Made by a program: the position numbers and the translations under genes
In this document: piece by piece, positions 8,835-43,081 of the stretch
Layout: each line of letters begins with the position of its first letter
Position numbering within the stretch: position 1 is the first letter of the stretch
NCBI GenBank assembly: GCA_009379815.1
Contig: WHSY01000004.1
Coordinates: 1-64,000 of the forward strand
Origin: Pseudonocardiaceae bacterium
GTDB taxonomy: Bacteria; Actinomycetota; Actinomycetes; Mycobacteriales; Pseudonocardiaceae
Length of the DNA stretch: 64,000 bases
Direction of reading: 5' to 3'
Notes under the pieces: generated by a model
Database searches by the model: none
What the model was told of the DNA's origin: nothing
Seen by the model: the letters and a program-made list of their open reading frames with translations, nothing else

Positions 8835-8841
8835 GACACGA

Positions 8842-26680: not shown

Positions 26681-27280
26681 TCAGATCCAGCCCTCCTCCC
26701 AGGCCCGGCGGGCAGCTTCGTGACGGGTCGCGGCACCGAGCTTGGCCATCGCGGCGGAAAGGTAGTTGCGCACGGTCCCCGGTGCGAGGTGCACCGAGGC
26801 CGCGATGTCCGCCACGGGGTCACCGTCGCGGGCATGGCGCAGTACGTCGAGCTCCCGCGCGGTCAGCGGGCAGTCCTGCTCGGTGAGCGCGCTCGCCGCG
26901 ATCTCCGGATCGACGTAGCGCGCACCGCCGTGCACGTCCCGGATGATCGACGCCAGCCGGGAGGCGGGAGTGGTCTTCGGCACGAAGCCCCGCACCCCGG
27001 CGGCCAGCGCCCGGCGCAGCACCGCCGGGCGGGCGTGCCGGGTGACGATGACGACCGCGCCGCCGTGACCGCGTAGCCGCTCGGCTGCGGTGATGCCGTC
27101 GAGCTCGGGCATCTCGAGGTCCAGCACCGCGATGTCCGGCCGGTGCTCGGTGGCGAGGCGCACCGCCTCGGCTCCGTCGGCGGCCTGGGCCACCACCCGC
27201 AGGTCGGGCTCGAGGTCGAGCAGGGCGGCGAGCGCACCGCGGATGAGGTCCTCGTCGTCGGCGAGCAGCAGCCGGATCAC
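26681..27280 (-). CDS. NarL/DesR-like response regulator
   Basis: A 199-residue protein from ATG 27280. The receiver has acidic residues Asp8/Asp9, phospho-acceptor Asp54 in AVLDLEMPELDG, the Thr of VIVTRHARP and Lys of FVPKTTPASRL. The LuxR-type HTH follows: CPLTARELDVLRHARDGDPV, then VHLAPGTVRNYLSAAMAKLG and a C-terminal ATRHEAARRAWEEGWI, the DesR-like ending. It overlaps the histidine kinase gene (ATGA). The pair faces a divergent ABC exporter. I infer that it binds the palindrome ATGACGGATGTCAT at 28506-28519, which recurs within an exact 23-bp repeat at 43059-43081. Confidence 0.92.
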   Translation of the reverse strand: MIRLLLADDEDLIRGALAALLDLEPDLRVVAQAADGAEAVRLATEHRPDIAVLDLEMPELDGITAAERLRGHGGAVVIVTRHARPAVLRRALAAGVRGFVPKTTPASRLASIIRDVHGGARYVDPEIAASALTEQDCPLTARELDVLRHARDGDPVADIAASVHLAPGTVRNYLSAAMAKLGAATRHEAARRAWEEGWI

Positions 27281-28452
27281 GGGACTCGCCCCACCAGCCG
27301 GAAGCCACCGTCGCCCGTCGCGCCGGCCTCGACGTCACCGCCTGCCGCGGTGAAACGCTCCCGCAGCCCGGCCAGGCCCGACCCGCCGTCGAGGGCACTC
27401 GGCTCGGTGGCGCCGTCGTTGCAGACTCGGACGGTGTCCGCGTCGAGGTGCAGCGCGCAGCGGGTGGCCTGGCTGTGCCGCAGCACGTTGGTGGTGCCCT
27501 CGCGCACCAGCACACCGAACAGCGGCTGCCACGCCGCCGGGACGGCCCTGGTATCGCCGGTGACCTCGGCGTCGATACCGGCCGCGGCGAGGATCCGCAC
27601 CGCGTTGGACACCTCGGTGTGCAGGTCGGCCTGCCGGTAGCCCTGCACGATGTCGCGGGTCTCGGCGAGCGCGGTGCGCGCGATGGTGACCAGCTCGTCG
27701 GCCTGCGCCCGGGCGGCGGCGCCGTCGGCGTCGATCAACCGCGATACCAGCTCCCCCTTGAGCGCGATCACCTGCAGGTGGTGGCCCTGCAGGTCGTGCA
27801 AGTCGGCGGCGAAGCGCAGCCGCTCCCGGGTCACCGCGAGGTCCGCCCCAGCCTGCCGGGCCCGGTCCAGCCGCTGGGTCACCTCCCAGAACCAGATCTG
27901 GAAGACGTTCAACGCAGCGAACATGGGTACCGCGATGATCGCGATGAGCCCCTGGGCGACCGGGGCGGTCGGCGCGTCCACCACCACCGCGCCCACCACG
28001 CCCGCCGCGGCGGTCAGCACCGCGCCGACCGCCGTGACCGGCCACCGGAGCCGCCGCTGCACGCTGATCGCCAGCGCGCCCACCATGGCGGCCGGGACCA
28101 ACAACCACAATGCGAGATCCCAGACCGGGGCGGCGAGGAACCAGGCGAGGACCGCGGCCAGCAACCCCGCACCGGCCTCCACCGGGCGCCGCAGACCGTC
28201 GTGCGGCGCGCGCACCGCGTCGACGACCAGCCGAAGCTGCACCGCCGTGGCGACCACCAGCAGCACCGACAGCGCCACGGTGTGCAGCAGTGTCGGCGCC
28301 CCGACGTTGGCCAGCGCGAGCGCAGGCAGCAGCGCCGAACCCGCCGCCACGGTGACGAACGTCCACCACGTGTATCGCCGCATCGCCTCGACGCCAGGCC
28401 CGGGCGCGCGCTCACCGGGACCCGGGACGCCGGGCGCGGGCTCGTCGGTCAC
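27277..28452 (-). CDS. DesK-like sensor histidine kinase
   Basis: About 391 residues from GTG 28452 (GTG 28497 is a longer option). After a Pro/Gly-rich N-terminus there are about six membrane spans (residues 30-185). The HisKA_3 dimerisation domain has RERLRFAADLHDLQGHHLQV with phospho-acceptor His219, and the HATPase_c domain shows REGTTNVLRHSQAT (N box) and GGSGLAGLRERFTAAGG (G box), ending FRLVGRVP. The layout matches DesK-type kinases that sense membrane state or envelope-active compounds and usually control a neighbouring ABC exporter. It lies head-to-head with that exporter; the exporter's ATPase is interrupted by the inserted element, so in this cell the pathway's usual target is broken. 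Confidence 0.9.
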   Translation of the reverse strand: MTDEPAPGVPGPGERAPGPGVEAMRRYTWWTFVTVAAGSALLPALALANVGAPTLLHTVALSVLLVVATAVQLRLVVDAVRAPHDGLRRPVEAGAGLLAAVLAWFLAAPVWDLALWLLVPAAMVGALAISVQRRLRWPVTAVGAVLTAAAGVVGAVVVDAPTAPVAQGLIAIIAVPMFAALNVFQIWFWEVTQRLDRARQAGADLAVTRERLRFAADLHDLQGHHLQVIALKGELVSRLIDADGAAARAQADELVTIARTALAETRDIVQGYRQADLHTEVSNAVRILAAAGIDAEVTGDTRAVPAAWQPLFGVLVREGTTNVLRHSQATRCALHLDADTVRVCNDGATEPSALDGGSGLAGLRERFTAAGGDVEAGATGDGGFRLVGRVP

Positions 28453-28501
28453 GCCGTCCACTGTAGGCAGGATCGCGCGGTCCGCGGACCCTTCCACGGC
28501 G

Positions 28502-28524
28502 GCTCATGACGGATGTCATCGCGG
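28502..28524. promoter_or_regulatory. Probable response-regulator operator, copy 1
   Basis: A 23-bp sequence containing the dyad ATGACGGATGTCAT (28506-28519, arms ATGAC/GTCAT) between the divergent kinase and ABC genes, about 78 bases before the ABC start. Exactly the same 23 bases occur on the other strand at 43059-43081. The dyad form fits a NarL/DesR-type regulator dimer. Confidence 0.7.
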
Positions 28525-29160
28525 AGTCGTGCGATGCCACATCTCCTCCGGTGACGCCGCGGCCCTACCCGGGCCCGGGCCCGCCGGCCAGCATTGCCGC
28601 CATGACCACAACCGTGATTCAGGCGCAGGGCTTGCGCTGCCGCTACGGGGACTTCGAGGCGGTGCGGGGCATCGACCTCCGGGTCGGCGCGGGCGAGCTG
28701 TTCGCGCTGCTCGGCACGAACGGCGCCGGCAAGACCACCACCATGGAGGCGCTGGAGGGGCTGCGCGCCCCGAGTGCGGGCACCGTGCGGGTGCTCGGCC
28801 ACGACCCCGGTGCCGAGCGGCGCGCGGTCCGGTCGCGCGTCGGGATCATGTTGCAGGACAGCGGTTTCGTCGCGGAGCTGTCCGTCGTCGAGACGCTCGA
28901 CCTGTGGCGCCGGCTGCGCGGCCGCGGTGGTGACGTGGCGATGGCGCTGGACCGCGTCGAGCTCGGGCACCGCCGCGACGTCGCGGTCGGGCAGCTGTCC
29001 GGCGGCGAGCGGCGGCGCCTCGACCTGGCGCTGGCCGTGTTGTCCCGGCCGGACGTGCTCTTCCTCGACGAGCCGACCACCGGGCTCGACCCGGAGTCGC
29101 GTCACCACACCTGGGACGTGGTGCGCGAGCTGCTCGCCGACGGGGCGTCGGTGCTGCTGA

Positions 29161-29170
29161 CCACGCACTA
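29161..29170. other. attL core of the integrated element
   Basis: CCACGCACTA, identical to 39527-39536. It covers the codons for the H-loop Thr-His-Tyr of the ABC ATPase. Upstream sequence is host gene; downstream sequence (TCCGTTACACGG...) is element. The functional att site may include flanking arm sites that cannot be defined here. Confidence 0.85.
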
Positions 29171-29237
29171 TCCGTTACACGGTCTCCTGGCCCAACATGC
29201 TGTGACCAGGGGAAACGTGCCTTACGCGGCTATACGC

Positions 29238-29243
29238 TACACT
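29238..29243 (+). promoter_or_regulatory. Probable -10 element of a leaderless integrase transcript
   Basis: TACACT (fits TANNNT) ends eight bases before the GTG start of the integrase, the spacing seen for leaderless mRNAs in actinobacteria. No ribosome binding site precedes the GTG, which supports the reading. No clear -35 is visible. Confidence 0.45.
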
Positions 29244-29251
29244 AGCATGCC

Positions 29252-30154
29252 GTGCCTCGTCTAGATAACGCTGAACTGCGGTCCCTGCTCGACTCGTGGC
29301 TGCTGCGGCTCAAGGCCGAACGCAAGGCCACCAAGACCATCGCCTGCTACCGGGAAGGCGTCGAGCAGTACCTCACCTACTGCGCCCGGGTCGGCGCCGA
29401 CCCCGACCTGCACCCGAACACGGTGGCCGCGTTCACCTCCTCGGTGCTCGACGCCGGCAACTCCCCGTCCACCGCTCGACTGCGGCAACTGGCGGTTCGG
29501 CTGTTCTCCGCGTGGCTGGCTGCCGAGGACGAGATCGCCCGGGACGAGCTGCTCGGTGTGAAACCCCCGAAGCTCGACCAGCAGCTTGTGGTCGGGCTCG
29601 ACGACGACGAGGTCACCGCGCTGCTCAAGGCGTGCTCCGGGAAGAGCCTGGGTGATCGCCGCGACGCGGCTATCGTGCGGCTGTGCCTCGAAACCGGGGT
29701 GCGCATCGGTGAGGTGGTGGCGATGACCACCGCCGATGTGGACCTGGCGCGCGGGCTGGCCACCGTCCGCCGCGGCAAGGGCGGCAAGGCCCGCACTGTC
29801 GCGTTCGGACCGGCGACCGGTTCGGCCATCGACCGCTACATACGCGCCCGGCGCCGCCACGTCCTCGCTGACAGGCCCGCGCTGTGGCTGGGGGAGAAGG
29901 GCTACGGCTACTCGTATGAGGCCGCCTACCGGTCGCTGGGGCGCCGCGCTGCGGCTGCGGGCATCGCCGGGTTCCACCCGCACCGGCTGCGGCACGCGTT
30001 CGCCTCGAGATGGTTGGCGGCCGGGGGCAGCGAGCAGGGGCTGATGGTCACCGCCGGGTGGACACGGCGGGAGATGCTGGACCGCTACTCGCGGGACACG
30101 TCGGCGAAGCGGGCTCACGAGGAGGCACGCCGACTCAACCTCGGTGACCTCTGA
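29252..30154 (+). CDS. int: Tyrosine recombinase/integrase of the element
   Basis: A 300-residue XerC/D-like integrase from GTG 29252. Residues 5-95 form the SAM-like core-binding domain (ELRSLLDSWLLRLKAERKAT). The catalytic domain shows Arg151 (ETGVRIGEVVAMT), a Lys-rich beta-hairpin (VRRGKGGKARTV), His244-x-x-Arg247 (FHPHRLRHAFASRW), Trp270 at the position of the second His (TAGWTRREM) and nucleophile Tyr279 (LDRYSRD). It lacks the N-terminal arm-binding domain of lambda-type integrases, so it may be a simple, possibly bidirectional recombinase. It lies 80 bases inside attL and most likely catalyses integration into the ABC H-loop sequence. No separate excisionase gene was recognised. Confidence 0.95.
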   Translation: MPRLDNAELRSLLDSWLLRLKAERKATKTIACYREGVEQYLTYCARVGADPDLHPNTVAAFTSSVLDAGNSPSTARLRQLAVRLFSAWLAAEDEIARDELLGVKPPKLDQQLVVGLDDDEVTALLKACSGKSLGDRRDAAIVRLCLETGVRIGEVVAMTTADVDLARGLATVRRGKGGKARTVAFGPATGSAIDRYIRARRRHVLADRPALWLGEKGYGYSYEAAYRSLGRRAAAAGIAGFHPHRLRHAFASRWLAAGGSEQGLMVTAGWTRREMLDRYSRDTSAKRAHEEARRLNLGDL

Positions 30155-30356
30155 CCCGTCGGTCGTCGTGGACCCAGCGCGACGCTCAGGCAGGGTGAAA
30201 GTACTTGCATCCTGCTCTCGCCCGAGAACCTGGCCGACGTACTGACGCGATACGCCGGCTACCTTGCCGATCGTCGACCTGTAGCCGTCGGTCGTCGTGG
30301 ACCCGTCGGCGCACCATGCTATCGTGTTCACCGTTACAGAACGTGAGTAGCAGCTA
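30155..30356. promoter_or_regulatory. Regulatory region with 20-bp direct repeats and probable promoter
   Basis: CCGTCGGTCGTCGTGGACCC occurs at 30155-30174 and again at 30285-30304. The second copy overlaps a possible -35 (TGGACC, 30298-30303) placed 16 bases before TATCGT (30320-30325, TANNNT-like -10), which would drive the structured leader and the early genes. The repeats are candidate operators for a repressor or excisionase. On the minus strand one frame across this region reads IGKVAGVSRQYVGQVLGRE, HTH-like, but it has no stop or clear start and the flanking repeat is in the same frame, so I do not call a gene. Confidence 0.5.
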
Positions 30357-30534
30357 GGGACGGGACCCCGTACCCAAAGCCGAACGGCGTGGCCACGAAG
30401 CCACACCAACCGGGTACGTGCACTGTGGGGTTGGAGGACGTCCCGAACGGCGAAACACAGCCGGGCAGATCGGCTTCCGGTGAGGAATACCGCCGAGCAG
30501 CGACAACCGGCAGATCCGGTGTCGCCGCTCGGCG
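30357..30534 (+). ncRNA. Structured RNA leader upstream of the early genes
   Basis: Three successive folded domains are visible. Domain 1 is nested: GGGACG (30357-30362) with CGTCCC (30439-30444); ACCCC (30365-30369) with GGGGT (30427-30431); GTACCC (30370-30375) with GGGTAC (30412-30417); and inside, GTGGC (30389-30393) with GCCAC (30400-30404). Domain 2: AGCCG (30459-30463) with CGGCT (30471-30475), loop GGCAGAT. Domain 3: CGCCGAGC with GCTCGGCG (30491-30498/30527-30534), GCGAC with GTCGC, ACCGG with CCGGT, loop CAGAT. The string GGCAGATC occurs at both loop 2 and loop 3. All helices listed are perfect. It ends 25 bases before the first small gene and follows a probable promoter, so it is a cis leader or a separate small RNA. 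Confidence 0.6.
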
Positions 30535-30558
30535 TTCGTGTTCCCTGGAGCCGGAACC

Positions 30559-30819
30559 ATGGCACTGTCCCCCGAGCAGCGTTCGCAGCGCGCCCGCATC
30601 GCAGCCCTAGCCCGCTGGGCACACGAGGACCCCACCGCCAACGCCGCACGCGCCCAGGCCGGTCTGCGCCGCAAGTTCGAGAACGAGGTCGACCCCGACC
30701 GGGTGCTGCCCGAGGCGGAACGAGCCCGCCGCACCGAGTGCGCTTGGCGCGCCCATCTGGCACGGGCGGCGTTCGCCAGCGCGAAGGCCCGCCGAGCCAG
30801 GTCGGGGGCTGACGAATGA
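30559..30819 (+). CDS. Small Arg/Ala-rich element protein
   Basis: An 86-residue protein from ATG 30559 with CTGGAGCCGGA upstream. It is helical and strongly charged: LSPEQRSQRARIAALARWAH, then ANAARAQAGLRRKFENEVDP and LPEAERARRTECAWRAHLAR. The spacing and composition match small hypothetical proteins found next to integrase or replication genes in many actinobacterial prophages and integrative elements. DNA binding is plausible from the basic helices but no HTH is definable. It is the first gene of the overlapping early gene chain; its stop overlaps the next start (ATGA at 30816). Confidence 0.7.
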   Translation: MALSPEQRSQRARIAALARWAHEDPTANAARAQAGLRRKFENEVDPDRVLPEAERARRTECAWRAHLARAAFASAKARRARSGADE

Positions 30820-31100
30820 AACCCCGCCGCGGGCAGTGCGACGGGGTTCCAGAAAGCAGCCCATGCGAGGGGGACAGCCCCGATCCTACCGCGCCCGGGC
30901 GACAGCTGCGACGGCGTCGTGACACGTCCCGACGGCTCGAGCCGGTGGCCGGGCTGCAGCCGGACCCGTGGCGCCACCCGCAGCCGGACCGGTGGTCAGC
31001 CCGCGAGGTCGCCTCCTGGCGGCTGGCCTGGGTGCACCTCGCCGAGCTCGGGCTCGAGCCGATCGTTCCCGACAGCCTCTACACGAGGTCGGCGGCATGA
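30816..31100 (+). CDS. Small element protein of unknown function
   Basis: Up to 94 residues from ATG 30816, which overlaps the previous stop. The first 45 residues are basic and Pro-rich without family character; the C-terminal half (DPWRHPQPDRWSAREVASWR, then LAWVHLAELGLEPIVPDSLY) has the pattern of short hypothetical proteins in actinobacterial prophages. A GTG at 30944 would encode only that half and is a reasonable alternative start. AACCCCG (30819-30825) and CGGGGTT (30841-30847) form a 7-bp hairpin inside the 5' part, which favours the shorter start. The stop overlaps the next gene (ATGA at 31097). Confidence 0.5.
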   Translation: MKPRRGQCDGVPESSPCEGDSPDPTAPGRQLRRRRDTSRRLEPVAGLQPDPWRHPQPDRWSAREVASWRLAWVHLAELGLEPIVPDSLYTRSAA

Positions 31101-31981
31101 CCGAACCGGCTTACGAGGGAGGCCACGTAAAACGGCAGCGGGCGACCAAGGCCGAGATGCAGCACCGGTACGACGCGCTGTACGAGATCGTCAGGGAGAA
31201 CAAGCCCACCGGCATCAGGTTCTGCTACTACCGGGCCACCACCAGGGGTGTCGTGGCCAAGACCGACTCCGGGTACAACATGGTGCAGCGCGCCATCCTC
31301 GACATGCGCCGGTCCGGTCGCATCCCCTGGCACTGGGTCGTGGACTCAAGCCGCTGGATGCGGAAACCGGACACGTGGGGGTCGGTCGAGGAGCTGCTCG
31401 CCGACGCCGGCGCCTCCTACCGCCGGGCCTTGTGGCGCGACTCAGAGTCGGTCGTCGAGGTGTGGTGCGAGTCGGAGTCTGTGGCCGGGGTGCTGTACCC
31501 GACCACAGCGAAGTGGGACGTGCCGCTGCACCCGCTGAAGGGCCAGACGTCGGACTCGTTCGCGTGGGGCGCGGCGGTGCAGTACCGCGACGACCCCCGC
31601 CCGTTGACGATCTTCTACCTGGGTGACCACGACCCGGCCGGGTACGAGATCGAGACCAACCTGCACGCGAAGCTGGTCGAGTTCTCGGGCCGCGTCGACA
31701 TCGAGTTCCTGCGGCTCGCCGTCGACTTCGGCGATGTGCAGCAGCTCGGGCTCACCGGCACCACGCCGAAGAAGCCCAGCTACCGAGACAAGGTGACCGG
31801 CGGGTTGGTGCCGTGGCATGGGCCGGCCGTCGAGGTCGAGGCGGTCGACCCGCCGATGCTGCGGCGCTGGCTCGACGCCTGCATAAGCGACAAGGTCGAC
31901 CACGAGGCGCTGCGGCTGCTGCGGGTGGCCGAGGAGTCTGAGCGGGAGATCCTGCTTCGCATGGCTGGGGAGGCGTCGTGA
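31097..31981 (+). CDS. TOPRIM-like (topoisomerase VI A/Spo11-like) element protein
   Basis: A 294-residue protein from ATG 31097. The central FYLGDHDPAGYEIETNL is a TOPRIM-type D-x-D site (Asp-His-Asp) followed by the helix seen in topoisomerase VI A/Spo11-like proteins. The N-terminal part (RFCYYRATTRGVVAKTDSGY, MVQRAILDMRRSGRIPWHWV) looks like a winged-helix DNA-binding region with Tyr residues that could be nucleophiles. The C-terminal part has DYR..-type Lys/Arg segments and a helical end. Such proteins occur in actinobacterial prophages and elements without a tested function; roles in replication, DNA topology or anti-defence are possible. Translationally coupled on both sides. Confidence 0.6.
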   Translation: MTEPAYEGGHVKRQRATKAEMQHRYDALYEIVRENKPTGIRFCYYRATTRGVVAKTDSGYNMVQRAILDMRRSGRIPWHWVVDSSRWMRKPDTWGSVEELLADAGASYRRALWRDSESVVEVWCESESVAGVLYPTTAKWDVPLHPLKGQTSDSFAWGAAVQYRDDPRPLTIFYLGDHDPAGYEIETNLHAKLVEFSGRVDIEFLRLAVDFGDVQQLGLTGTTPKKPSYRDKVTGGLVPWHGPAVEVEAVDPPMLRRWLDACISDKVDHEALRLLRVAEESEREILLRMAGEAS

Positions 31982-32217
31982 AGCGCGACGGCGGGCCGAC
32001 CTTGTTCATCACGGTCGACCCGGAGCGTGGCCTCGCCTTGGTCCGCGGCAAGTCCGGCAAGCGCACCGTGCACCTCCTGGTGGCCGAGGAGGACATCACC
32101 TATAGCACCTCTCAGCGTGGCTGGGTGGTGCCCGCGTCCGCCGTGCCGGACATCGAAACCTTCGCGTCCTACTACGCGGAGGAACTGTGCGTGACGACGA
32201 AGCGGAAGCTGCCATGA
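31978..32217 (+). CDS. Small element protein
   Basis: A 79-residue protein starting at GTG 31978, overlapping the stop of the TOPRIM-like gene. It begins KRDGGPTLFITVDPERGLAL, then VRGKSGKRTVHLLVAEEDIT, WVVPASAVPDIETFASYY and a basic end TTKRKLP. It is probably a small beta-rich domain. No family is recognised. Its stop overlaps the next start (ATGA at 32214), so it is part of the early/replication unit. Confidence 0.6.
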   Translation: MKRDGGPTLFITVDPERGLALVRGKSGKRTVHLLVAEEDITYSTSQRGWVVPASAVPDIETFASYYAEELCVTTKRKLP

Positions 32218-32858
32218 CCTGGACCAAGCTAGGCGACGAGTTCCCCGACGACTGCGAGCGCGCCGAGCTGTCAGACGCGGCCGTCCGCACCCACGTCGAG
32301 GCGCTGTGCTGGTCCAACCGGCTCCTCCTCGACGGGCACATCCCGATGCGCCACCTCGGCCGGTTCGCGTTCAGCCAAGACGCCGACCGCGCCGTCAGTG
32401 AACTACTGGCCGCCGGCTGGTGGGGCGAGACGGAGGACGGCTACCTGCTGATGCACGACATCACCGAGCAGCGCAGCCGCGAGCAGGTGCTGGCATCGAG
32501 AGAGACAGCGAAGGGGAGGCAGGCCCGATGGAGAGGCAAGCACCGCGTGGAACCGGATAACGCCGTTACTAACGCCGTTACGAGACGGGGACGTAACGCC
32601 GTTACCCGGGACGGGACGGGACAGGACAGGTCTGGGTCTAAACCCAGCCAGGAAGAGAAGGAAGTACACGTGCGCGAGGACGCGATCACCGAGGCCGAAC
32701 CACCGACGGAGGAGACGTTGTCACCACCTCGTCCAGATGCATGTTCGGGCTGCGGGAAGGTCGGCTCCTCCCTCACGGCCGGGGGTCTGTGCCGCCGCTG
32801 CCACGGCGAGGCGGTGTCCCGCTCCTACAACCTCGACAACGGCAGGAGCTCGGCGTGA
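32214..32858 (+). CDS. Replication-initiator-like protein with internal iterons
   Basis: A 214-residue protein from ATG 32214. The N-terminal domain (TWTKLGDEFPDDCERAELSD, AAVRTHVEALCWSNRLLLDG, IPMRHLGRFAFSQDADRAVS, LLAAGWWGETEDGYLLMHD) is the winged-helix pattern of phage replication proteins of the lambda-O/DnaT-like kind common in actinophages. The linker contains ITEQRSREQVLASRETAKGR and then a repeated NAVT peptide (NAVTNAVTRRGRNAVTR) encoded by DNA iterons (32558-32605). The C-terminus is a zinc ribbon, CSGCGKVGSSLTAGGLCRRC. I infer that it binds its own gene as the element's replication origin, as lambda O does. It lies within the translationally coupled chain. Confidence 0.7.
   Translation: MTWTKLGDEFPDDCERAELSDAAVRTHVEALCWSNRLLLDGHIPMRHLGRFAFSQDADRAVSELLAAGWWGETEDGYLLMHDITEQRSREQVLASRETAKGRQARWRGKHRVEPDNAVTNAVTRRGRNAVTRDGTGQDRSGSKPSQEEKEVHVREDAITEAEPPTEETLSPPRPDACSGCGKVGSSLTAGGLCRRCHGEAVSRSYNLDNGRSSA
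32558..32605. repeat. Three iterons inside the replication gene
   Basis: TAACGCCGTTAC occurs at 32558-32569, directly repeated at 32570-32581, and again at 32594-32605. With its flanking base the third copy is the dyad GTAACGCCGTTAC. The array encodes the repeated NAVT peptide. Tandem dyad repeats inside an initiator gene are the arrangement of a lambda-type origin. Confidence 0.75.
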
Positions 32859-33445
32859 GACCGCACCTCACCCCGTGCGCGGGCTGCGGGCAGCTGGTGC
32901 CCACGTGCACCCTCGACGGCCAACGCCGGTGCACCACCTGCGCACGCAGGCCGCGGACGATGGAGTTGGGATACGTATCCCTTTTACCGGATGAGGCAAG
33001 ATTGCCGATATCGGTAAAGTCCTTCGTTAGATCCGCGACTGTCTGCTGCGGTACCCCTTCCAACTGTCAACGACTTGACAGTCCAGCCGGAGCGGATCAC
33101 TGGCCCGTGCACGCCATCCACAGGCACACCCACCCTGTGGACAACACCTGTGCACAACCCCTGTGGACAACCGAGGGAGACACGTGGACACCGAGCAGCG
33201 CATCGACGCCTGGACCTTCACCCCACCCGGACCAGGCCGAGCCGACGAACGCGTGTGGTCGCGATGCGCCGTCAACGGCTGCGCCTGGAGAGTCCCCGCA
33301 CACCCCGACGGCGTCGCGCTGCTGTGCCGCGGACACCGCGAAGATGCCTACGACACGAGGCCGAGCTACCGCAAGGTCGACGAGGTCACCCACCTCAAGC
33401 TCCGCAAACTGCCCGGTACGCGACGCGGTGACGGTGCGGCGGTGA
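32855..33445 (+). CDS. Zinc-ribbon element protein (C-terminal extent uncertain)
   Basis: GTG 32855 overlaps the stop of the replication gene. The first ~40 residues, RPHLTPCAGCGQLVPTCTL then DGQRRCTTCARRPR, form a treble-clef or zinc-ribbon with two CxxC pairs and are convincing. Formally the frame stays open to 33445 (196 residues), but from about 32960 it runs through a lower-GC region full of dyads and DnaA-box-like repeats and then overlaps the next gene by 260 bases, so much of the C-terminal part may be non-coding run-through. A mutated or missed stop is possible. Confidence 0.4.
   Translation: MRPHLTPCAGCGQLVPTCTLDGQRRCTTCARRPRTMELGYVSLLPDEARLPISVKSFVRSATVCCGTPSNCQRLDSPAGADHWPVHAIHRHTHPVDNTCAQPLWTTEGDTWTPSSASTPGPSPHPDQAEPTNACGRDAPSTAAPGESPHTPTASRCCAADTAKMPTTRGRATARSTRSPTSSSANCPVRDAVTVRR
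32968..33082. promoter_or_regulatory. Cluster of operator-like dyads
   Basis: Three separate dyads lie within 115 bases of relatively AT-rich sequence: the perfect palindrome GGGATACGTATCCC (32968-32981); TTGCCGATATCGGTAA (33002-33017), 14 of 16 bases symmetric; and ACTGTCAA-CGAC-TTGACAGT (33063-33082), perfect 8-bp arms. TTTACCG (32983-32989) and CGGTAAA (33012-33018) pair as well. This density suggests repressor or initiator binding and a promoter for the rightward genes. Confidence 0.6.
33114..33170. promoter_or_regulatory. DnaA-box-like cluster, candidate replication origin
   Basis: TGTGGACAA, the complement of the actinobacterial DnaA box TTGTCCACA, is present at 33136-33144 and 33162-33170; TGTGCACAA (33149-33157) differs by one base, and CCATCCACA (33114-33122) matches TTATCCACA at seven of nine on the other strand. 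Spacing is regular (13 bases between successive boxes). It lies next to the dyad cluster and 530 bases from the iterons. Confidence 0.6.
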
Positions 33446-33453
33446 CGGAGTGA
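33184..33453 (+). CDS. Small Cys/His element protein
   Basis: An 89-residue protein from GTG 33184, with GAGGGAGACAC directly upstream. It reads DTEQRIDAWTFTPPGPGRAD, then ERVWSRCAVNGCAWRVPAHP and GVALLCRGHREDAY. The CxxxxC...CxxH arrangement suggests a small zinc-binding fold. No function is known. It begins right after the DnaA-box cluster, so it is the first gene of the rightward unit behind the putative origin. The T-rich GTTTTTTATT at about 33482-33491 after its stop may be part of a terminator, though no strong stem precedes it. Confidence 0.6.
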   Translation: MDTEQRIDAWTFTPPGPGRADERVWSRCAVNGCAWRVPAHPDGVALLCRGHREDAYDTRPSYRKVDEVTHLKLRKLPGTRRGDGAAVTE

Positions 33454-33582
33454 CGGTGCGATGCGGTCCGATGACACAACGGGTTTTTTATTCAGCAGCC
33501 TCGGACGACCGCGCAATCCCCCGTTTCTCTCCCTACGTTGAATTGCGGCGGTTTCCCCTTCTCTCTGTGACAGGTGGTAGCG

Positions 33583-34011
33583 ATGAGTGACCTAGGCCTT
33601 GCGCGGGCGCTGAGTCGGCTGCAGGCCGACGAGCTGCCGTCGGTGCAGGGCGAGGAGCGGGCGGCACTGCTGAGCGCTCTCAGCAACGGTTGGGCGGACC
33701 TGGCGGCTGTGAACGATGCGGTTGCCGAGTTAGCGGGCACGGTCCGGATGATCGGCCGCTGTCCCTTCCCTGCCGGCCGTGCTGTGACGGCCGCGCTCGA
33801 GGCGTGTTCGCCGTCGGACCGGCGGGTAGTGATGCTGTCAACGGCCGAGGTGCGGGACCGCATGGTGGGTGTGGGTGAACACCGGCTCGCGGCGGCGTGG
33901 GCCGAGCTCGCAGCGTTGGCCGGCGAGGTGATAGCGGCGGAGGGGGAGCTGCTGCGGGCGCTCGAGGACGACGGCGCGTCGGGCCCGGGTTTTGTCGGGA
34001 CGGACCGGTAG
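33583..34011 (+). CDS. Helical element protein of unknown function
   Basis: A 142-residue protein from ATG 33583 behind AGGTGG. It is mostly alpha-helical and Ala/Leu/Glu-rich: SDLGLARALSRLQADELPSV, GEERAALLSALSNGWADLAA, AEVRDRMVGVGEHRLAAAWA, ELAALAGEVIAAEGELLRAL. No motif of terminase small subunits, proteases or portal proteins is present. Its place just before the capsid gene would fit an assembly or scaffold helper, but this is only position-based. A 180-base gap with a hairpin (34088-34109) separates it from the capsid gene. Confidence 0.6.
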   Translation: MSDLGLARALSRLQADELPSVQGEERAALLSALSNGWADLAAVNDAVAELAGTVRMIGRCPFPAGRAVTAALEACSPSDRRVVMLSTAEVRDRMVGVGEHRLAAAWAELAALAGEVIAAEGELLRALEDDGASGPGFVGTDR

Positions 34012-34087
34012 GATGATCGGTGCGACGGTGGAGCGCAGGTCGACAACCACGCTGCCCGTTGACGGGTGAGTTGAACGCGTAGGGACC

Positions 34088-34109
34088 GCTGACGAAGATC
34101 GTCGTCAGC
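34088..34109. terminator. Hairpin between small gene and capsid gene
   Basis: GCTGACGA (34088-34095) pairs perfectly with TCGTCAGC (34102-34109) around a six-base loop, in the gap before the capsid gene. It may be a terminator or a leader element of the capsid transcript; no T-tract follows. Confidence 0.4.
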
Positions 34110-34191
34110 CGCAGGCACCGTAGCTGTCGGTGCGGGAAACCCCGGGCTCCCTCTAAGACCCCCATTGTGCTGATCTTGGAGTGGAGTAGAC

Positions 34192-35487
34192 GTGAACCCG
34201 GATTTCGCTGATCTTGCGTCGAGGCTGCGCGCGGAGCGTGAGGTGTTGTCGCAGGCCATCGACCACATGAGGACGCCGGAGGGCGCGCCGCGCCCCGACC
34301 TGTCGACGCAGCAGCGTGCACTGTGGGAAGCATCAGTCATGCGCCGCACGGTCGTCGATGAGCGACTTGCGGACCTTCCGGAGCATGTTGCTGCTGCGGG
34401 CGGGGTGGAGCAGCGCAAGGACGATGTGGACGAGCGGCTCGGCGAGCTCGACGCCGCCGATCGGCGGCAGGCCTCCGCGGAGGAGGCGTTCCGGCAGCTG
34501 CACGCCACGCCGCGGGTGGCTGGTCGCGGCTCCCGTGGTCGGGACGAGGGGTTCGCGGCGTTCGCGCGCGGTGAGGAAGGGCACCGGGCCACGTTCAACG
34601 TGGACCTGTCCGAGGCCGCGGAGGCGCGTTCCCTGACCGTGGGCACCGGCAGCGAGGGTGGAGACACCGCCCCGGCTTCGTTCGTGGCCAGGTTGTACGA
34701 GCACATGATCGAGACTTCGGGGGTGCGGCAGGCCGGGCCGACGGTGTTGACCACCTCCGGTGGTGAGGACTTGGCGGTGCCGAAAACCACCGGGCATGGG
34801 ACGGCGGCGATCGTTTCCGAAGGGGCGACGATCGGCGAGGACGACCCGGAGTTCGACACGGTGACCCTGGGCAGCTTCAAGTACGGCAGCCTGATCAAGG
34901 TCACGAACGAGCTTTTGACGGACACGTCGGTGGATCTTGTGGGGTATCTGGCCCGCTCGTTCGGGCGTGCGGTCGGGAACCTCAGTGGCGAGCACTTCGT
35001 GTCCGGGTCGGGCTCCGGGGAACCTGAGGGGCTGCTGGGTGCGTCCACGTTGGGTGTGACCGCGGCGGCGACGGACACTGTCACCGCCGACGAGGTGATC
35101 GACATGTTCTTCACGGTTATCCCCGAGTACCGGGGTCGGGGGACGTGGCTGATGACCGACAGCATGTGGGCGAAGATCCGCAAGTTGAAGGACGCGGACG
35201 ACAACTACCTGGTGGGTCCGATCGCCGACGGTGGTGTGTTGCGGCTGTTGGGCCGGCCGGTGGTGATCGACCCGTATGTGGATGAGCCCGCGGCGGACGC
35301 TAAAACGATCCTGTTCGGCGACTTCTCGGCGTACTACATCCGGCAGGTGTCCGGGTTGCGGTTCGAACGGTCCGACGATGTCGGGTTCGACACGGACACC
35401 GTGTGGTTCCGGGTGTTGCACCGGCTCGACGGCCGTCTGGTGGACGGCTCCGGGGCGATCAAGCACCTCGCGCAGGCCGCTGCCTGA
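34192..35487 (+). CDS. HK97-family phage major capsid protein
   Basis: A 431-residue protein from GTG 34192 (TTGGAGTGGAG upstream). Residues 1-100 are charged and coiled-coil (LRAEREVLSQAIDHM, RKDDVDERLGELDAADRRQA), equivalent to the HK97 delta/scaffold domain. The capsid core starts near FAAFARGEEG; ETSGVRQAGPTVLTTSGGED, EGATIGEDDPEFDTVTLGSF, KYGSLIKVTNELLTDTSVDL, GRAVGNLSGEHFVSGSGSGE and GRGTWLMTDSMWAKIRKLKD are the family's conserved blocks. No separate protease gene accompanies it. A 267-base gap with no recognisable gene follows before the tape-measure gene; the head-tail connector and tail-tube genes normally found there are absent. Confidence 0.95.
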   Translation: MNPDFADLASRLRAEREVLSQAIDHMRTPEGAPRPDLSTQQRALWEASVMRRTVVDERLADLPEHVAAAGGVEQRKDDVDERLGELDAADRRQASAEEAFRQLHATPRVAGRGSRGRDEGFAAFARGEEGHRATFNVDLSEAAEARSLTVGTGSEGGDTAPASFVARLYEHMIETSGVRQAGPTVLTTSGGEDLAVPKTTGHGTAAIVSEGATIGEDDPEFDTVTLGSFKYGSLIKVTNELLTDTSVDLVGYLARSFGRAVGNLSGEHFVSGSGSGEPEGLLGASTLGVTAAATDTVTADEVIDMFFTVIPEYRGRGTWLMTDSMWAKIRKLKDADDNYLVGPIADGGVLRLLGRPVVIDPYVDEPAADAKTILFGDFSAYYIRQVSGLRFERSDDVGFDTDTVWFRVLHRLDGRLVDGSGAIKHLAQAAA

Positions 35488-35754
35488 CAGTGATGGTCGT
35501 GGGGCGTCAACCTCACCCGCCGGGGGCTTTGGTTCCTTTCACCCCGGATCGGAAGGAAGGCCGGCACTCAAGGGTCCCGCCGGGCCCGCCGGCCTGCGCC
35601 CCGCCGAACGTGGTGTGCGGGCCGGGACCTATCCAAGCGGTCGCTTCGGGCCCCGGTCTGCGCACCTCGAGCGGGCACCCCGGCCGGGGGCGGTTGGTCC
35701 TTCCCGCCGGTCGGGGCTGCCTGCACCCCTTCGTGACTAGCTGAGAGGGCGAGC

Positions 35755-38700
35755 ATGGCCAAGACGTTGAGGGTCAACTTCATTGGCGACACCTCGGACC
35801 TTGAGAAGTCGGTCGACCAGGGCACCGCGAAGATCCGCTCGTTCGGGCAGAAGGTCGTCAAGATCGCTGCCGCCGCGGGTGCCGCCGCCGGTGTGGCTGT
35901 GGGCGCCGCCCTGACGAACGCGATCAACGTGGAGGGCGCCAACGCGAAACTCGCCGGTCAGCTCGGTTTGGTCGGGAGGGACGCGAAGCGCGCCGGGGCT
36001 GTCGCCGGACGGGTGTACTCCCAGGGCTGGGGGGAGAATCTGGGCGCGGTGCACGACGCGGTCCGCGGGCTCGTGCAGAACGCCAACGTCTCAGTCAAGG
36101 CGGTCAACCTCGAGCCGTTGGTCAGGAACGTGACGGTGCTGACCGACACGTTCGGGGTGTCGGCGGGGGAGATCACCACCGCCATCGGCGGGGTGGGTCG
36201 CGCGTTCGGCACCAAGCCGCAGAAGGCGCTGGACTCGGTCACTAAGCTGCTGCAGACCGGTGGGGACCGGGCCACGGACCTGGGCGACACGCTCACCGAG
36301 TACCCGCAGCGCATCAAAACACTCGGTCTGTCCGGGCAGCAGTTCTTCGGGCTGATCAACCAAGGTTTGGCGGCCGGTGGCCGCAACACCGACGTGTTCG
36401 GCGACAGCTTGGCGGAGCTCAACATCCGCATCTCGTCCGGTGAGGCAGCCAAGGGCATGCAGATGTTGGGGATCAACGCGTCGCAGGCCACCGCCGCTAT
36501 CTCGGCGGGGGGGCCGGGGGCGCAGGCCGCCCTGGACCAGATTTTCGACAAGCTGCGGGCGATTCAGGACCCCACCCGCCGCGCTCGGGTCGCCACCGAG
36601 CTGTTCGGCAGCGTGTGGGAGAACGCCGGGGAGGCGTTGTTCGCGTTGGACCCGTCGGAGGCGGTCGCGTCCCTCGGGAACGTGGAGGGCGCCTCCAACA
36701 GGCTCACCGAGTCGCAGAAGAACGCGGCGCAGCAGATCGAGGCGTTCAAGCGGTCGGCGATCAGTTTGGCGACGCAGGCGATCGGCGGGTTCCTGCTGCC
36801 GAAGGTCACCGAGCTGGCGGGATTCTTGAACCGCAACCTGAAGCCCACCATCGACGCGGTGGTGCGGGCGTTCCGGGAGAACCGGACGGCGGTTGAGGCA
36901 ACAGTGTCGGTGCTCGGGGGGATGCTGACCGCGCTGCTGGCCATGAAGGTCATCGGTTCGGTGATCGCCGGTGTGAAGGGGCTACGGCTCGCTGTCATCG
37001 CGTTGAACGCGGCCATGCGGGCGAACGTGATCGGCATTGTGATCACCGCGCTGGCGGGGCTGGTCGGCGGGCTCATCTACGCCTACAAGAACTCCGAGAC
37101 ATTCCGCAACATCGTGAACGCGGTGTTCCGGGCGGTCGCCGCGGTGGCCACATGGTTGTGGAACAACGTGCTCAAGCCGGTGTTCAACTTCATCGGGGGG
37201 GTGTTCCGCGCCAACGCGGACCGGATCGGGTGGGCGTGGCGCAACGTCATCAAACCGGCGTGGGATGCGCTGGTGGCCGTCCTACAGTTCTTGTGGAACA
37301 ACGTGCTTCGCCCGATCTTCCAGCGCATCGGGGACCGGTGGAACGCGATGGGGGTCGGGATCCGGGCGGTGTGGCGCAACGTGATCCGACCCGCCTGGGA
37401 CGCGCTGGTGGGCGGTTTGCGGTGGGTGCGCGACCGGTTCCGGGAGATCGTGGACTGGGTGGGCCGTAAGTGGGACCAGCTGCGCGGGCTGCTCGCCCGG
37501 CCGATCAACGCGGTGATCCGCACCGTGTTCAACAACGGGATTCTGCGGGCCTGGAACTGGGCCGCGGGGCTGCTGCCCGGGGTCGACAAGGCCAACAAGG
37601 TCCCGGAGTTCCGGTGGGCTCGTGGCGGTATCCACGAGCAGCATCAGGCGCAGATCACCAAGGCTGGGGGTCCGCTGCGGATCTGGAGTGAGCCGGAAAC
37701 CGCCGGTGAGGCCTACATTCCGCTAGCGGCGAGCAAGCGGCAGCGGTCCACGGGGATCCTGGCGGAGGTCGCCGACCGGTTCGGGCTCGATGTGCTGCCC
37801 CGCCACCTGGCCACGTTCGCGTTCGGTGGTGTCGTCGACCGGGCCCTGGCGCTGGCCGCCCGCCCATCCGGTGCGCGGGTGTCCTCGGCGTACCGGCCCG
37901 GCGACAGCGGCTATCACGGGCGGGGGAAGGCCGTCGACCTGGTCGGGAACCTGCCCGGCATCAACCGCTATCTCGCGAAGGGCTGGCCCAACTCGACGCA
38001 GCTGATCTACACCCCGGGCACGAACCTGCTCAACGGGCGGCCGCACCGCTACAACGCGGCCACCCGAGCCGACCACTTCGACCATGTGCATTGGGCGCAG
38101 GAGAACCTCGCGATGGTCGGGAACCCGGCGCTTCGTGCGATCGGCGGCGGGCTCCGTGGCGCGTTCAACTTCGTCCGCGACCAGATCCGCGGCGCGTTCG
38201 AGCGCATCACCAACCCGCTGATAGACGGGCTGCCGAAGGCGCCGCCCGCGTTCAAGGACATGGGCCGCGGTGTGGCCACCAAGTCCCGCGACTCGCTGCT
38301 GAACTGGATGCTGGGGGAGGCCGACAAGGTCGACGGGGCATCGGATCCGGGCGGGGCCGGGGTGCAGCGCTGGCGGCCGCTGGTGCAGCAGATGCTGCGC
38401 CTCGTGGGTCAGCCGCTGGGGCACACCGGGATCACGCTGCGGCGCATGAACCAGGAGTCCGGCGGGAACCCGCGGGCGATCAACAACTGGGATGTGAACG
38501 CCCGCCGGGGCACCCCGTCTAAGGGGCTGATGCAGGTCATCGACCCGACGTTCCGGGCGTTCCGGCACCCTAGGTTGCCTAACAATGTGTGGCACCCGGG
38601 GGCGAATGTGGCGGCGTCCATGCGCTACGCCCTGTCCCGCTACGGCAGCCTGCCGTCCGCGTACAACCGGCCGGGCGGGTACGCCGACGGTGGGATTGTC

Positions 38701-38910
38701 ACCGGCCCGACGATGGCGACGCTCGGTGAGGACGGCGCCGAGGCGATCGTTCCGCTGGGCAAGCCGCGCCGCGCCCGTGAAGTGATGGACCAGGCCGGGC
38801 TCGGCGGCGTCACGAAGCTCTACCAGGTGAACATCAACGCCACCTCGGTCGACGGGGAGGACGTGCGCAACGCGATCCGGCGCATGGAAATGCTCGACGG
38901 CGCCTACTGA
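35755..38910 (+). CDS. Phage tail tape-measure protein with peptidoglycan-hydrolase modules
   Basis: A 1051-residue protein from ATG 35755 behind GAGAGGGCGAGC. The N-terminus (KTLRVNFIGDTSDLEKSVDQ and an Ala-rich span) and the GxF-x-TxPQKALDSVT-like region are typical of TP901-type tape measures. Hydrophobic segments near 380-450 may be membrane-inserting. Trp-rich repeats (LWNNVLKPVFNFIGGVF, AWRNVIKPAWDAL and similar) span about 460-570. Around 705-780 a D,D-peptidase-like module has SSAYRPGDSGYHGRGKAVDL and DHFDHVHWAQ. Around 880-975 an SLT lytic-transglycosylase module has RRMNQESGGNPRAINNWDVN and SKGLMQVIDPTF. At about 1.5 angstrom per residue it would specify a tail near 150 nm, yet no other tail gene is present. 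Confidence 0.92.
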   Translation: MAKTLRVNFIGDTSDLEKSVDQGTAKIRSFGQKVVKIAAAAGAAAGVAVGAALTNAINVEGANAKLAGQLGLVGRDAKRAGAVAGRVYSQGWGENLGAVHDAVRGLVQNANVSVKAVNLEPLVRNVTVLTDTFGVSAGEITTAIGGVGRAFGTKPQKALDSVTKLLQTGGDRATDLGDTLTEYPQRIKTLGLSGQQFFGLINQGLAAGGRNTDVFGDSLAELNIRISSGEAAKGMQMLGINASQATAAISAGGPGAQAALDQIFDKLRAIQDPTRRARVATELFGSVWENAGEALFALDPSEAVASLGNVEGASNRLTESQKNAAQQIEAFKRSAISLATQAIGGFLLPKVTELAGFLNRNLKPTIDAVVRAFRENRTAVEATVSVLGGMLTALLAMKVIGSVIAGVKGLRLAVIALNAAMRANVIGIVITALAGLVGGLIYAYKNSETFRNIVNAVFRAVAAVATWLWNNVLKPVFNFIGGVFRANADRIGWAWRNVIKPAWDALVAVLQFLWNNVLRPIFQRIGDRWNAMGVGIRAVWRNVIRPAWDALVGGLRWVRDRFREIVDWVGRKWDQLRGLLARPINAVIRTVFNNGILRAWNWAAGLLPGVDKANKVPEFRWARGGIHEQHQAQITKAGGPLRIWSEPETAGEAYIPLAASKRQRSTGILAEVADRFGLDVLPRHLATFAFGGVVDRALALAARPSGARVSSAYRPGDSGYHGRGKAVDLVGNLPGINRYLAKGWPNSTQLIYTPGTNLLNGRPHRYNAATRADHFDHVHWAQENLAMVGNPALRAIGGGLRGAFNFVRDQIRGAFERITNPLIDGLPKAPPAFKDMGRGVATKSRDSLLNWMLGEADKVDGASDPGGAGVQRWRPLVQQMLRLVGQPLGHTGITLRRMNQESGGNPRAINNWDVNARRGTPSKGLMQVIDPTFRAFRHPRLPNNVWHPGANVAASMRYALSRYGSLPSAYNRPGGYADGGIVTGPTMATLGEDGAEAIVPLGKPRRAREVMDQAGLGGVTKLYQVNINATSVDGEDVRNAIRRMEMLDGAY

Positions 38911-39137
38911 GCCGCAGTCTGCGCGGCCGTCGACAGGCAGTCCGCCAACTCCGTGGCCTCGTGGCCGGTCAGCTCCGCAGCGGTGTCGGTGGCGCCGTGG
39001 TGCAGCAGCAGAACCCTCCGGTTCGTGCCGATCACCAGCAGGGTGCAGTACCCGCCGCCGCCGAACAACTTCGCGGTGATGCCGCTGCGGTAGCGCTCGC
39101 GCTCACCCTCGGGCAGCGACCCGGTCACCGGGACCAT
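38904..39137 (-). CDS. Small protein at the element's right end
   Basis: A 77-residue protein if started at ATG 39137 (VPVTGSLPEGERERYRSGIT); a GTG at 39188 would add 17 residues. The body ITAKLFGGGGYCTLLVIGTN then RRVLLLHHGATDTAAELTGH and a helical C-terminus looks like a small alpha/beta fold. It overlaps the upstream minus-strand gene by 13 bases and its end overlaps the tape-measure stop. Genes opposite to the structural genes at the end of a prophage are often expressed in the lysogen (moron-like); no function can be assigned. Confidence 0.5.
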   Translation of the reverse strand: MVPVTGSLPEGERERYRSGITAKLFGGGGYCTLLVIGTNRRVLLLHHGATDTAAELTGHEATELADCLSTAAQTAAQ

Positions 39138-39379
39138 TCCCGCAGGTGAATCGGTGGCGGTCCCGGGACCCCCACCGAAGGCGACCACTGTGCGGCGGCA
39201 CCGGCGGGCAGCACCGCACCCGCTGAGTCGCCTCCTGACAGCCGCAGCAGGCGTTCCAGGTCTGCTGCCACCTGCCGCCGCTGCGGTGCCGTGAGCCTCG
39301 AGCTGACGACTAGCAGGACGTGGTCGCCGACGCGGACACCGACACCGTCCTCGACCATGGTGTCTGACACGCTGTGCAT
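39125..39379 (-). CDS. Small protein, first gene of the right-end minus-strand pair
   Basis: An 84-residue protein from ATG 39379; GACGAGG lies about nine bases upstream. It reads HSVSDTMVEDGVGVRVGDHV, LLVVSSRLTAPQRRQVAADL and ERLLRLSGGDSAG, then a Pro-rich C-terminus. No family recognised. It is followed by an overlapping second small gene, so the two form a unit read towards the tape-measure gene. Position just inside attR suggests lysogenic expression, perhaps superinfection immunity or a host-interaction role (inference only). Confidence 0.5.
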   Translation of the reverse strand: MHSVSDTMVEDGVGVRVGDHVLLVVSSRLTAPQRRQVAADLERLLRLSGGDSAGAVLPAGAAAQWSPSVGVPGPPPIHLREWSR

Positions 39380-39526
39380 GGGCGGGACCTCGTCTCCCGT
39401 CAAGGCCCCGGGTCGGTGGTGTATACCGGCCTTGGGGCCGCCTACTGGTAGGGGATAGTGCACGACCGACGGTGTGTCACCACCTGCACAAACCACACTC
39501 GCGCATGCCGTGGTGAGCGGTTCTAG

Positions 39527-39536
39527 CCACGCACTA
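39527..39536. other. attR core of the integrated element
   Basis: CCACGCACTA, identical to attL. To its right the ABC ATPase frame resumes (CTGGAGGAGGCC, Leu-Glu-Glu-Ala). Just left, the element sequence contains CACCACCTGCAC and GCCGTGGTGAG, complementary blocks that may be recombinase arm or accessory sites. Confidence 0.85.
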
Positions 39537-39891
39537 CCTGGAGGAGGCCGAGGCACTCGCCGACCGGCTGGCGATCATGCACGAGGGCCGGATCGCGGTC
39601 AGCGGCACCGTCGCCGAGGTGGTCGGCGCCCAGCCCGCGCGGATCTCCTTCGAGCTCGGGCGGCCCGCTCCACCGCTGCCGGTGCTGTCCGCCGCGGCGC
39701 AGCACGACGGTGCCGCGGTGGCGCTGCGCAGCACGGCGCTGCAGCAGGACCTGACCACCTTGCTGGCGTGGGCGCAGCACCACGACGTGGCGCTGCGCCG
39801 CCTGGTCGCACGGCACGCCTCGCTCGACGACGTCTTCCGCGCGGTCCGCACCCAAGGGCGCTCCGACGAACGACAGGAGGTTGCGGCATGA
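39527..39891 (+). pseudogene. ABC exporter ATPase, C-terminal part
   Basis: The frame through attR encodes THYLEEAEALADRLAIMHEG, RIAVSGTVAEVVGAQPARIS and a final regulatory region ending SLDDVFRAVRTQGRSDERQE. This is the normal continuation of an ABC-2 exporter ATPase after the H-loop, in frame with the N-terminal half at 28602-29171. Inside the element the frame has a stop at 39514-39516, so no fusion is made; an internal ATG at 39577 could start only a non-functional fragment. Its stop overlaps the permease start (ATGA at 39888), so the insertion may also reduce permease translation. Confidence 0.9.
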
Positions 39892-40715
39892 TCACCCCCG
39901 AGACGACTACCACCGACACGATCACCACCGACACGATCACCACCGACACGATCACCACCGACACGATCAGCCCGTTGCGCGGTGCCGTGACTCTCGCGGG
40001 CGCGGAGGCCCGGCTGCTGGTGCGCAATCGCGTGGTCGCCACCACCGCCCTGGTCATGCCGCTGGCACTCGGCGGCCTTCTCGCGCTCAACGCGGACGGC
40101 CTGACCCGCGGGGGCTGGGCGGGGGCGGCGGCGCTGCAGATCATCGCGATGCTCGGGCTCGCGGTCTACGCCGGGGCCACCACGTCGCTGACCGCACGCC
40201 GCCAGGCGCTGTACCTCAAGCGGTTGCGCAGCGGGGAGCTGCCCGATGCCGCCATCCTCGCCGGCCTGCTCGGCCCGTTCCTCGCACTCGGGGCGCTGCA
40301 GGCCATCCTGCTGCTCGGGATCCTGGTGGCGCTCGGCGCACCGCCGCCTACGAACGTGGCGCTGCTGGCGCTCGCGGTGCTCGGCGGGTCCGTGGTGTGC
40401 TGCGTGGCCGCCGCGGTCACCAGCGGCCTGACCCGCTCGGCGGAGACCGCGCAGCTGACGACGACCCCGTTGTTCGTCGCGATCATCGCCGGCGGCATCT
40501 GGGTGATCACCACCGCGCCGGCGGAGGTGACGGCGCGGATGCTCGCCACCCCCGGCGGCGCGCTCGCGGACCTGGTGCGCCGCGGCTACAGCGGCGACGG
40601 CCCGTTGCTCGACCAGCTCTCCGGCGCCCTGCCGGCAATCGGGTTCCTGGCCGCATGGGTCGTGATCGGCGTGGTCGCCGCCACCCGCACCTTCCGCTGG
40701 GACCCCCGCCGCTGA
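39888..40715 (+). CDS. ABC-2-type exporter permease
   Basis: A 275-residue membrane protein from ATG 39888, overlapping the ATPase stop. The cytoplasmic N-terminus is a Thr/Asp/Ile repeat (TTDTITTDTITTDTI) encoded by a 15-bp DNA repeat. Six hydrophobic spans follow, beginning with VVATTALVMPLALGGLLAL; ARRQALYLKRLRSGELPDAA between spans 2 and 3 is the typical cytoplasmic coupling loop with L-K-R-L-R-x-G. It should form a homodimeric exporter with the split ATPase, under control of the divergent DesK/DesR-like pair. Substrate unknown; drug or peptide efflux is usual for this arrangement. Confidence 0.85.
   Translation: MITPETTTTDTITTDTITTDTITTDTISPLRGAVTLAGAEARLLVRNRVVATTALVMPLALGGLLALNADGLTRGGWAGAAALQIIAMLGLAVYAGATTSLTARRQALYLKRLRSGELPDAAILAGLLGPFLALGALQAILLLGILVALGAPPPTNVALLALAVLGGSVVCCVAAAVTSGLTRSAETAQLTTTPLFVAIIAGGIWVITTAPAEVTARMLATPGGALADLVRRGYSGDGPLLDQLSGALPAIGFLAAWVVIGVVAATRTFRWDPRR
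39911..39970 (+). repeat. In-frame 15-bp tandem repeat
   Basis: CACCGACACGATCAC is repeated exactly three times and a fourth time with the last base changed (39911-39925, 39926-39940, 39941-39955, 39956-39970). It encodes Thr-Asp-Thr-Ile-Thr units in the N-terminus of the ABC permease and could vary in copy number without shifting the frame. Confidence 0.9.
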
Positions 40716-42184: not shown

Positions 42185-42922
42185 TCACCCGAGCAGGACG
42201 GCTGCGGTGAGGAAGATGATCGCGTTGTTGACTCCGTGGGCGACCACCGCGGGCCAGATCGAGCGCGACCACTCGTAGACCAGTGCGGTGATCACCCCGA
42301 CGACCACTGCGCCCGCGAGGACGACGCTGATGCCGTGCGCGAGGCCGAACACGGCGGCGCTGCCGAGGGTGGCCACCACGACGCCGTAGCGGCGCAGCCC
42401 TCCGTAGATCACGCCCCGGAACAGCAGCTCCTCGCCGAGGGGGACCAGCACGGAGCCGAGGGCCAGCATGCCGACGAGCCCCGCGACAGATCCCGAGGCG
42501 GCCTCCGCCAGCCCTTGCTGTGGGTTGGTGGTGTCCCCGGTGATCGCGATGTACGCGAGGATCACTCCCCGGTTGATCAACCAGGCCACGACGCCGGCCC
42601 CGACGCCGAGCCACACCCACCGCCAGGACACGGCCCGCACCCCGAGCGCCGTGATCGAGCGCACCCGCAGCGCGGCGGCGATGGCGACAGCGCCCAACGC
42701 CGTGACAGCGGAAGCGAGCACGGCGAGGAGGATCGGCGGGGTCGCGCCCACGAACGCGATGAGTGAACCGATGACCAGGGCGTTGAGCAGCACGAAGGCA
42801 GCCACCCCGACGACGATCTCGGTCCAGCCCAGCGCAGGGCGGTCCGGGTCACCCACGCCTACCCGACCCCGGTCTCCGATGCTGTGCTCGCCGACCGGCT
42901 CCGACCCGATGGACTCCGACAT
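42185..42922 (-). CDS. CPBP family intramembrane glutamic protease
   Basis: A 245-residue protein from ATG 42922, with GGGAGGATGAGAAC upstream. About seven membrane spans. The Abi/CAAX protease motifs are present: EELLFRG (Glu164-Glu165), FGLAHG (His196) and HGVNN (His229, Asn233). Bacterial members process CAAX-like or bacteriocin-related peptides, give self-immunity, or cleave anti-sigma factors. The exact 23-bp sequence at 43059-43081 lies 137 bases upstream in the same orientation relative to this gene as it has relative to the ABC exporter, suggesting control by the DesR-like regulator at 26681. Confidence 0.88.
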   Translation of the reverse strand: MSESIGSEPVGEHSIGDRGRVGVGDPDRPALGWTEIVVGVAAFVLLNALVIGSLIAFVGATPPILLAVLASAVTALGAVAIAAALRVRSITALGVRAVSWRWVWLGVGAGVVAWLINRGVILAYIAITGDTTNPQQGLAEAASGSVAGLVGMLALGSVLVPLGEELLFRGVIYGGLRRYGVVVATLGSAAVFGLAHGISVVLAGAVVVGVITALVYEWSRSIWPAVVAHGVNNAIIFLTAAVLLG

Positions 42923-43058
42923 GTCGTTCTCATCCTCCCACGCCGTCCGCCACCTTTCGGCCTCGATCACCGTGCTGACCATGCCGACGATGCTCCGAGC
43001 CGGCGCCGGGCCGCGGTAGCGCCGACAGTCACGCGATGGCATGCGCCGGTCCACTATC

Positions 43059-43081
43059 CCGCGATGACATCCGTCATGAGC
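43059..43081. promoter_or_regulatory. Probable response-regulator operator, copy 2
   Basis: The reverse complement of this 23-bp stretch is identical to 28502-28524. It contains the dyad ATGACATCCGTCAT (43064-43077). It lies in the divergent region between the CPBP protease (minus) and the tyrosinase operon (plus), with GATAGTGG just downstream on the minus strand as a possible -10 region. Confidence 0.65.

Follow-up and report, generated by a model that had tools for sequence, protein, structure and literature searches.

In Bacillus subtilis, the DesK/DesR two-component system controls a desaturase gene through the des promoter, in which an ATGACA-N2-TGTCAT operator forms an inverted repeat that is followed by further half-sites. 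Clusters of the YvfRSTU type (YvfTU, SA1313/1314 and BA5598/5597) and pneumococcal TCS11 combine an ABC ATPase, a permease, a DesK-like kinase and a DesR-like regulator, and a three-site promoter is located before the ABC gene (PMC7726353, PMC11034029). Pdes-like promoters with three regulator sites have been reported for Firmicute ABC/TCS clusters (PMC7726353). The published motif of DesR is ATGACA-N2-TGTCAT, and that of pneumococcal RR11, whose operon includes ABC transporter genes, is ATGACATTTGTCAT-N7-AGTGACA (PMC11034029). The sole specific target found for RR11 was its own operon. In the literature, no description of the exact motif analysed below was found for actinobacteria, the only comparable case being that of DesR and RR11, and nothing directly relevant was found on EsrR, GPP34, CPBP, MadRS or promoter rewiring.

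The locus described here is located in a 64,000-nucleotide stretch of DNA from a Pseudonocardiaceae bacterium, referred to as the window. It unites an ABC ATPase, a permease, a kinase and a regulator, as in a YvfRSTU-type cluster, and the three-site promoter before the ABC gene is clear in several orthologous loci of relatives. It differs from the YvfRSTU-type clusters and from TCS11 in that the genes for the kinase and the regulator are divergent to those of the ABC transporter, the ATPase gene is interrupted, and additional full promoters are found before a CPBP gene and, elsewhere in the genome, a GPP34 gene. The predicted targets are the ABC exporter, CPBP and probably GPP34, whereas the target in B. 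subtilis is the desaturase. The motif, the regulator and the kinase are of a known kind, that of DesK/DesR and the YvfRSTU-type clusters. Unusual are the apparent growth of the regulon in this lineage, by what looks like the copying of a promoter, to include CPBP and probably GPP34, and the probable loss of the exporter through a phage-like insertion. The features are listed in Table 1.

Table 1. Position, strand and characteristics of the features in the window and of one promoter elsewhere in the genome
Feature	Position	Strand	Remarks
DesR-type response regulator	26681..27280	-	receiver and GerE domains
DesK-type histidine kinase (HisKA_3)	27277..28497	-	true start probably downstream of the start of the longest frame
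Repeat copy 1, 23 bp	28502..28524	+	dyad 28506-28519
ABC promoter	28502..28594	+	dyad, second half-site near 28530, GTGAC 28551-28555, CTACC 28565-28569; R1 38.0 bits
Putative -10 (CAGCAT) of ABC promoter	28589-28594	+	inferred from alignments, as are the half-sites
ABC ATPase gene (DrrA-like), 5' part	28602..29171	+	cut after H-loop codons
Phage-like element, 10.4 kb	29172..39526		10-bp CCACGCACTA at 29161-29170 and 39527-39536
ABC ATPase gene, 3' part	39527..39892	+	
ABC-2 type permease	39891..40715	+	weak match, just under curated cut-off
CPBP (Rce1-like) intramembrane protease gene	42185..42984	-	predicted start ATG near 42982
CPBP promoter	42993..43081	-	architecture of ABC promoter; TGAC third half-site 43028-43031, CTACC 43015-43019; R1 38.4 bits, alignment
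Repeat copy 2, 23 bp	43059..43081	-	dyad 43064-43077
Third DesR-type promoter, before GPP34 (GOLPH3-like) gene	C133:49198-49288 (L083, L130)		R1 31.2 bits

The top solved match of the regulator was DesR, over the full length (3.8e-42), and the GTVRNY stretch in the DNA-binding domain was identical in the two proteins. It was the only regulator of the DesR-type family found in its own genome at E<=1e-40. The solved-structure matches of the kinase were to DesK only, and the protein has a HisKA_3 core and transmembrane segments, the number of which is a hydropathy estimate.

The preliminary description had reported an exact 23-bp repeat before the ABC and CPBP genes, and sequence comparison confirmed it: GCTCATGACGGATGTCATCGCGG at 28502-28524 on the forward strand is the reverse complement of 43059-43081, with identity at 23 of the 23 bases. 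The two copies also have the same orientation towards their genes, as had been stated, and the dyad was found 82 bp from the predicted start of the ABC gene (ATG 28602) and 81 bp from that of the CPBP gene (ATG 42982). Comparison of both flanks revealed nothing convincing in the way of further similarity upstream of the two 23-mers. The dyad core, ATGACGGATGTCAT, is 14 bp long (ATGAC-N4-GTCAT), and in the window both dyads deviate from ATGACA-N2-TGTCAT by one off-consensus base; the consensus was exact in many orthologous loci.

Short identical repeats do occur in GC-rich genomes, so that the 23-mer might have nothing to do with the regulator and be a repeat of dispersed or chance origin. However, the 14-bp core had just two matches in the 64-kb window when up to 2 mismatches were allowed, and the 5.44-Mb genome contained two exact matches and one with a single mismatch; the scattered copies that would speak against a regulon were not seen in this genome-wide search. 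Moreover, exact repeats of at least 23 bp occurred at a mean of 0.03 pairs per Markov-resampled window, and the dyad is conserved at ABC promoters across the family. Such an origin is extremely improbable. The remaining real repeats of at least 23 bp in the window came from tandem repeats and from the duplication of a DUF222 gene. Tandem repeats of 16 bp (TGGGGTTCAGCCACGC) are present at 4005-4084 and of 15 bp (TTDTI-type) at 39884-39969, at the start of the permease gene. The two DUF222 genes, 7056-8864(-) and 24164-25999(+), are inverted, approximately 15 kb apart and up to 78% identical over long stretches.

Orthologous loci of relatives carry the dyad in front of the ABC gene as well. When these ABC promoters were aligned, the dyad was followed by a second half-site approximately 22 bp on, a third (TGAC) approximately 22 bp further and CTACC, and the start codon was 79-82 bp past the dyad in most loci. 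The three regulator sites were clear in several orthologous loci; in the window, the second has a degenerate sequence in either promoter. In other genomes, exact ATGACANNTGTCAT sites were located within 4 kb of a regulator of the DesR-type family in 16 of 25 cases. In relative G018, a 180-bp stretch in front of a GNAT acetyltransferase gene (C52; L011 1387-1566) contained three DesR-like dyads, on a contig without a regulator match.

These findings indicate that ATGACGGATGTCAT is a candidate DesR-type operator site of the ATGACA-N2-TGTCAT class, and that a three-site promoter of a DesK/DesR-type system likely has the 23-bp repeat as its distal and best-conserved part. They agree with the earlier assignment of the dyad to the NarL/DesR type, which is supported by the match to the DesR motif and by the dyads at orthologous ABC promoters. 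The adjacent regulator, put forward at the same time as the candidate binder, likely binds the repeat, judging from DesR as its closest solved relative and from the dyads near such regulators in relatives.

A promoter model, R1, was trained on 14 orthologous ABC promoters of other genomes, with the window sequences left out. In the relatives, matches above 45 bits occurred once per genome and were all ABC promoters, several of them matching by construction because they belonged to the training set; away from known regulator loci the maximum was 24.9 bits. In its own genome, R1 scored the CPBP, ABC and GPP34 promoters highest, in this order (Table 1), and the next best score was 20.4 bits. On the opposite strand at both window sites R1 scored the dyad only, and therefore each promoter faces its named gene. 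The full promoter architecture is thus present before CPBP and directed at the gene, which supports CPBP as a candidate member of the regulon of the DesR-type regulator. The proposal of one small regulon stood as far as the inclusion of CPBP is concerned, but it had missed a third likely member outside the window: judging from its promoter, GPP34 is probably a further member of the regulon. The promoter was not found at the GPP34 homologues of relatives. In relative G011, the GPP34 gene directly adjoins the regulator gene.

Other candidate sites in the genome were rejected. The site at C88:1262-1342 (L003), which has a perfect dyad, GTGAC and CTACC before a DUF222 gene, was not counted as a promoter because of its weak score (20.4 bits) and different half-site spacing. 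The ATGACTCGTGTCAT sequences at C10 and C366 (L004 1501, L006 1501) are part of a longer palindrome common to both places, which seems to be a repeat of its own, and the ATGACCGCCGTCAT dyad at C144 was set aside.

The two window promoters could be aligned past the 23 bp through the start codons, and their similarity exceeded that of 2000 of 2000 shuffles. The CPBP promoter was 62% identical to the ABC promoter of its own genome, compared to 42-56% for nine aligned orthologues. In other genomes, 37 loci that carry CPBP homologues were without an R1 promoter; identity to the homologues compared did not exceed 52%, so the set may lack true orthologues, and a genome scan for CPBP relatives returned distant relatives only. 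Because it is nearest to the own ABC promoter and absent from the 37 loci, the CPBP promoter looks as if the ABC promoter, perhaps including the first codons, had been copied in inverted orientation in this lineage alone, and the repeat is likely the distal portion of a promoter copied as a whole, which extends beyond the 23-mer first noticed. We infer the direction, age and history of the copying; the identity of the two promoters outside the 23 bp is about 60%, and therefore any copy would be old.

The same low identity, together with the shortness of the identical part, would fit a convergent regulon, in which point mutations under selection gave CPBP its operator and the promoter elements and the regulator controls both genes. 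The likeness of the coding starts is only moderate as well, the predicted CPBP start MVSTVIEA corresponding to MTTTVIQA in the ABC protein and the coding sequence alone taking rank 13 of 3821 start-like positions. However, the two promoters agree in the off-consensus dyad centre, in nine dyad-flanking bases, in the spacing of the half-sites and in the distance at which the start codon follows, and no promoter is nearer to that of CPBP than the genome's own ABC promoter, which makes convergence unlikely. The ABC-like codons with which the CPBP reading frame opens could also be the remnant of a second ABC gene, its promoter surviving by chance and not driving CPBP. Such a decayed duplication is very improbable, as the repeat is still identical at all 23 positions although its surroundings have diverged, and the whole architecture is retained at 38.4 bits. 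Copying of the ABC promoter in front of CPBP is the reading we prefer.

The distance of 14.5 kb between the two sites given in the preliminary description is real, but it includes the 10.4-kb phage-like insertion, and the interruption of the exporter had been overlooked; the two sites were therefore originally about 4.2 kb apart. Past the H-loop codons, at approximately 29172, the ATPase frame no longer matches; the match continues from 39527, with THYLEEAEALADR. The element (29161-39536) was inserted in the H-loop codons and has the 10-bp direct repeat CCACGCACTA on either side. Its genes include an integrase gene and replication-type genes as well as genes for a capsid and a tape measure; no terminase or portal was recognised among the frames searched, which covered only part of the small ones. 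In viral scans, the integrase had no relative, and for the capsid a single distant contig was returned. In the only other genome of the same genus among those compared, the ABC gene is uninterrupted. Because its ATPase gene is split by the phage-like element, the exporter is probably non-functional, and the usual output of the system would be lost in this strain.

From these observations, the following mechanism is proposed. The membrane kinase would sense a change in membrane state and phosphorylate the regulator, dimers of which would occupy the dyad and the two downstream half-sites, the spacing of approximately 22 bp corresponding to two helical turns. The proximal half-site would adjoin the -35 region and recruit RNA polymerase, presumably as activation. 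The promoter looks leaderless, with the -10 and the start predicted from the conserved spacing. In relatives, the target would be the divergent ABC exporter. In the present lineage, the promoter and perhaps the first codons of the ABC gene would have been copied in inverted orientation before CPBP, approximately 4.2 kb away, and a similar promoter precedes the GPP34 gene elsewhere in the genome. After the phage-like insertion had split the ATPase gene, the outputs still at work would likely be CPBP and GPP34. The account as a whole, a three-site DesK/DesR-type promoter copied before CPBP and a split exporter, is held with good confidence. A bolder version is doubtful: that a DesK/DesR-type sensor gained protease and GPP34 outputs by unit copying of the exporter promoter, after which an H-loop-targeting element removed the original output and shifted the circuit from export to proteolysis.

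With regard to the inducing signal, nothing was found in support of the envelope stress suggested earlier, which is a possible signal but a guess. Among characterised systems, the closest ones respond to membrane fluidity or cold, and by analogy membrane fluidity or temperature is suggested as the signal.

These findings tie a widespread and poorly understood actinobacterial ABC/TCS family to the DesR operator class, and a testable operator rule is gained for a bacterial family. They also present a case of a regulon seemingly enlarged by the copying of a complete promoter, in which the probable co-regulation of CPBP and GPP34 points to the membrane.
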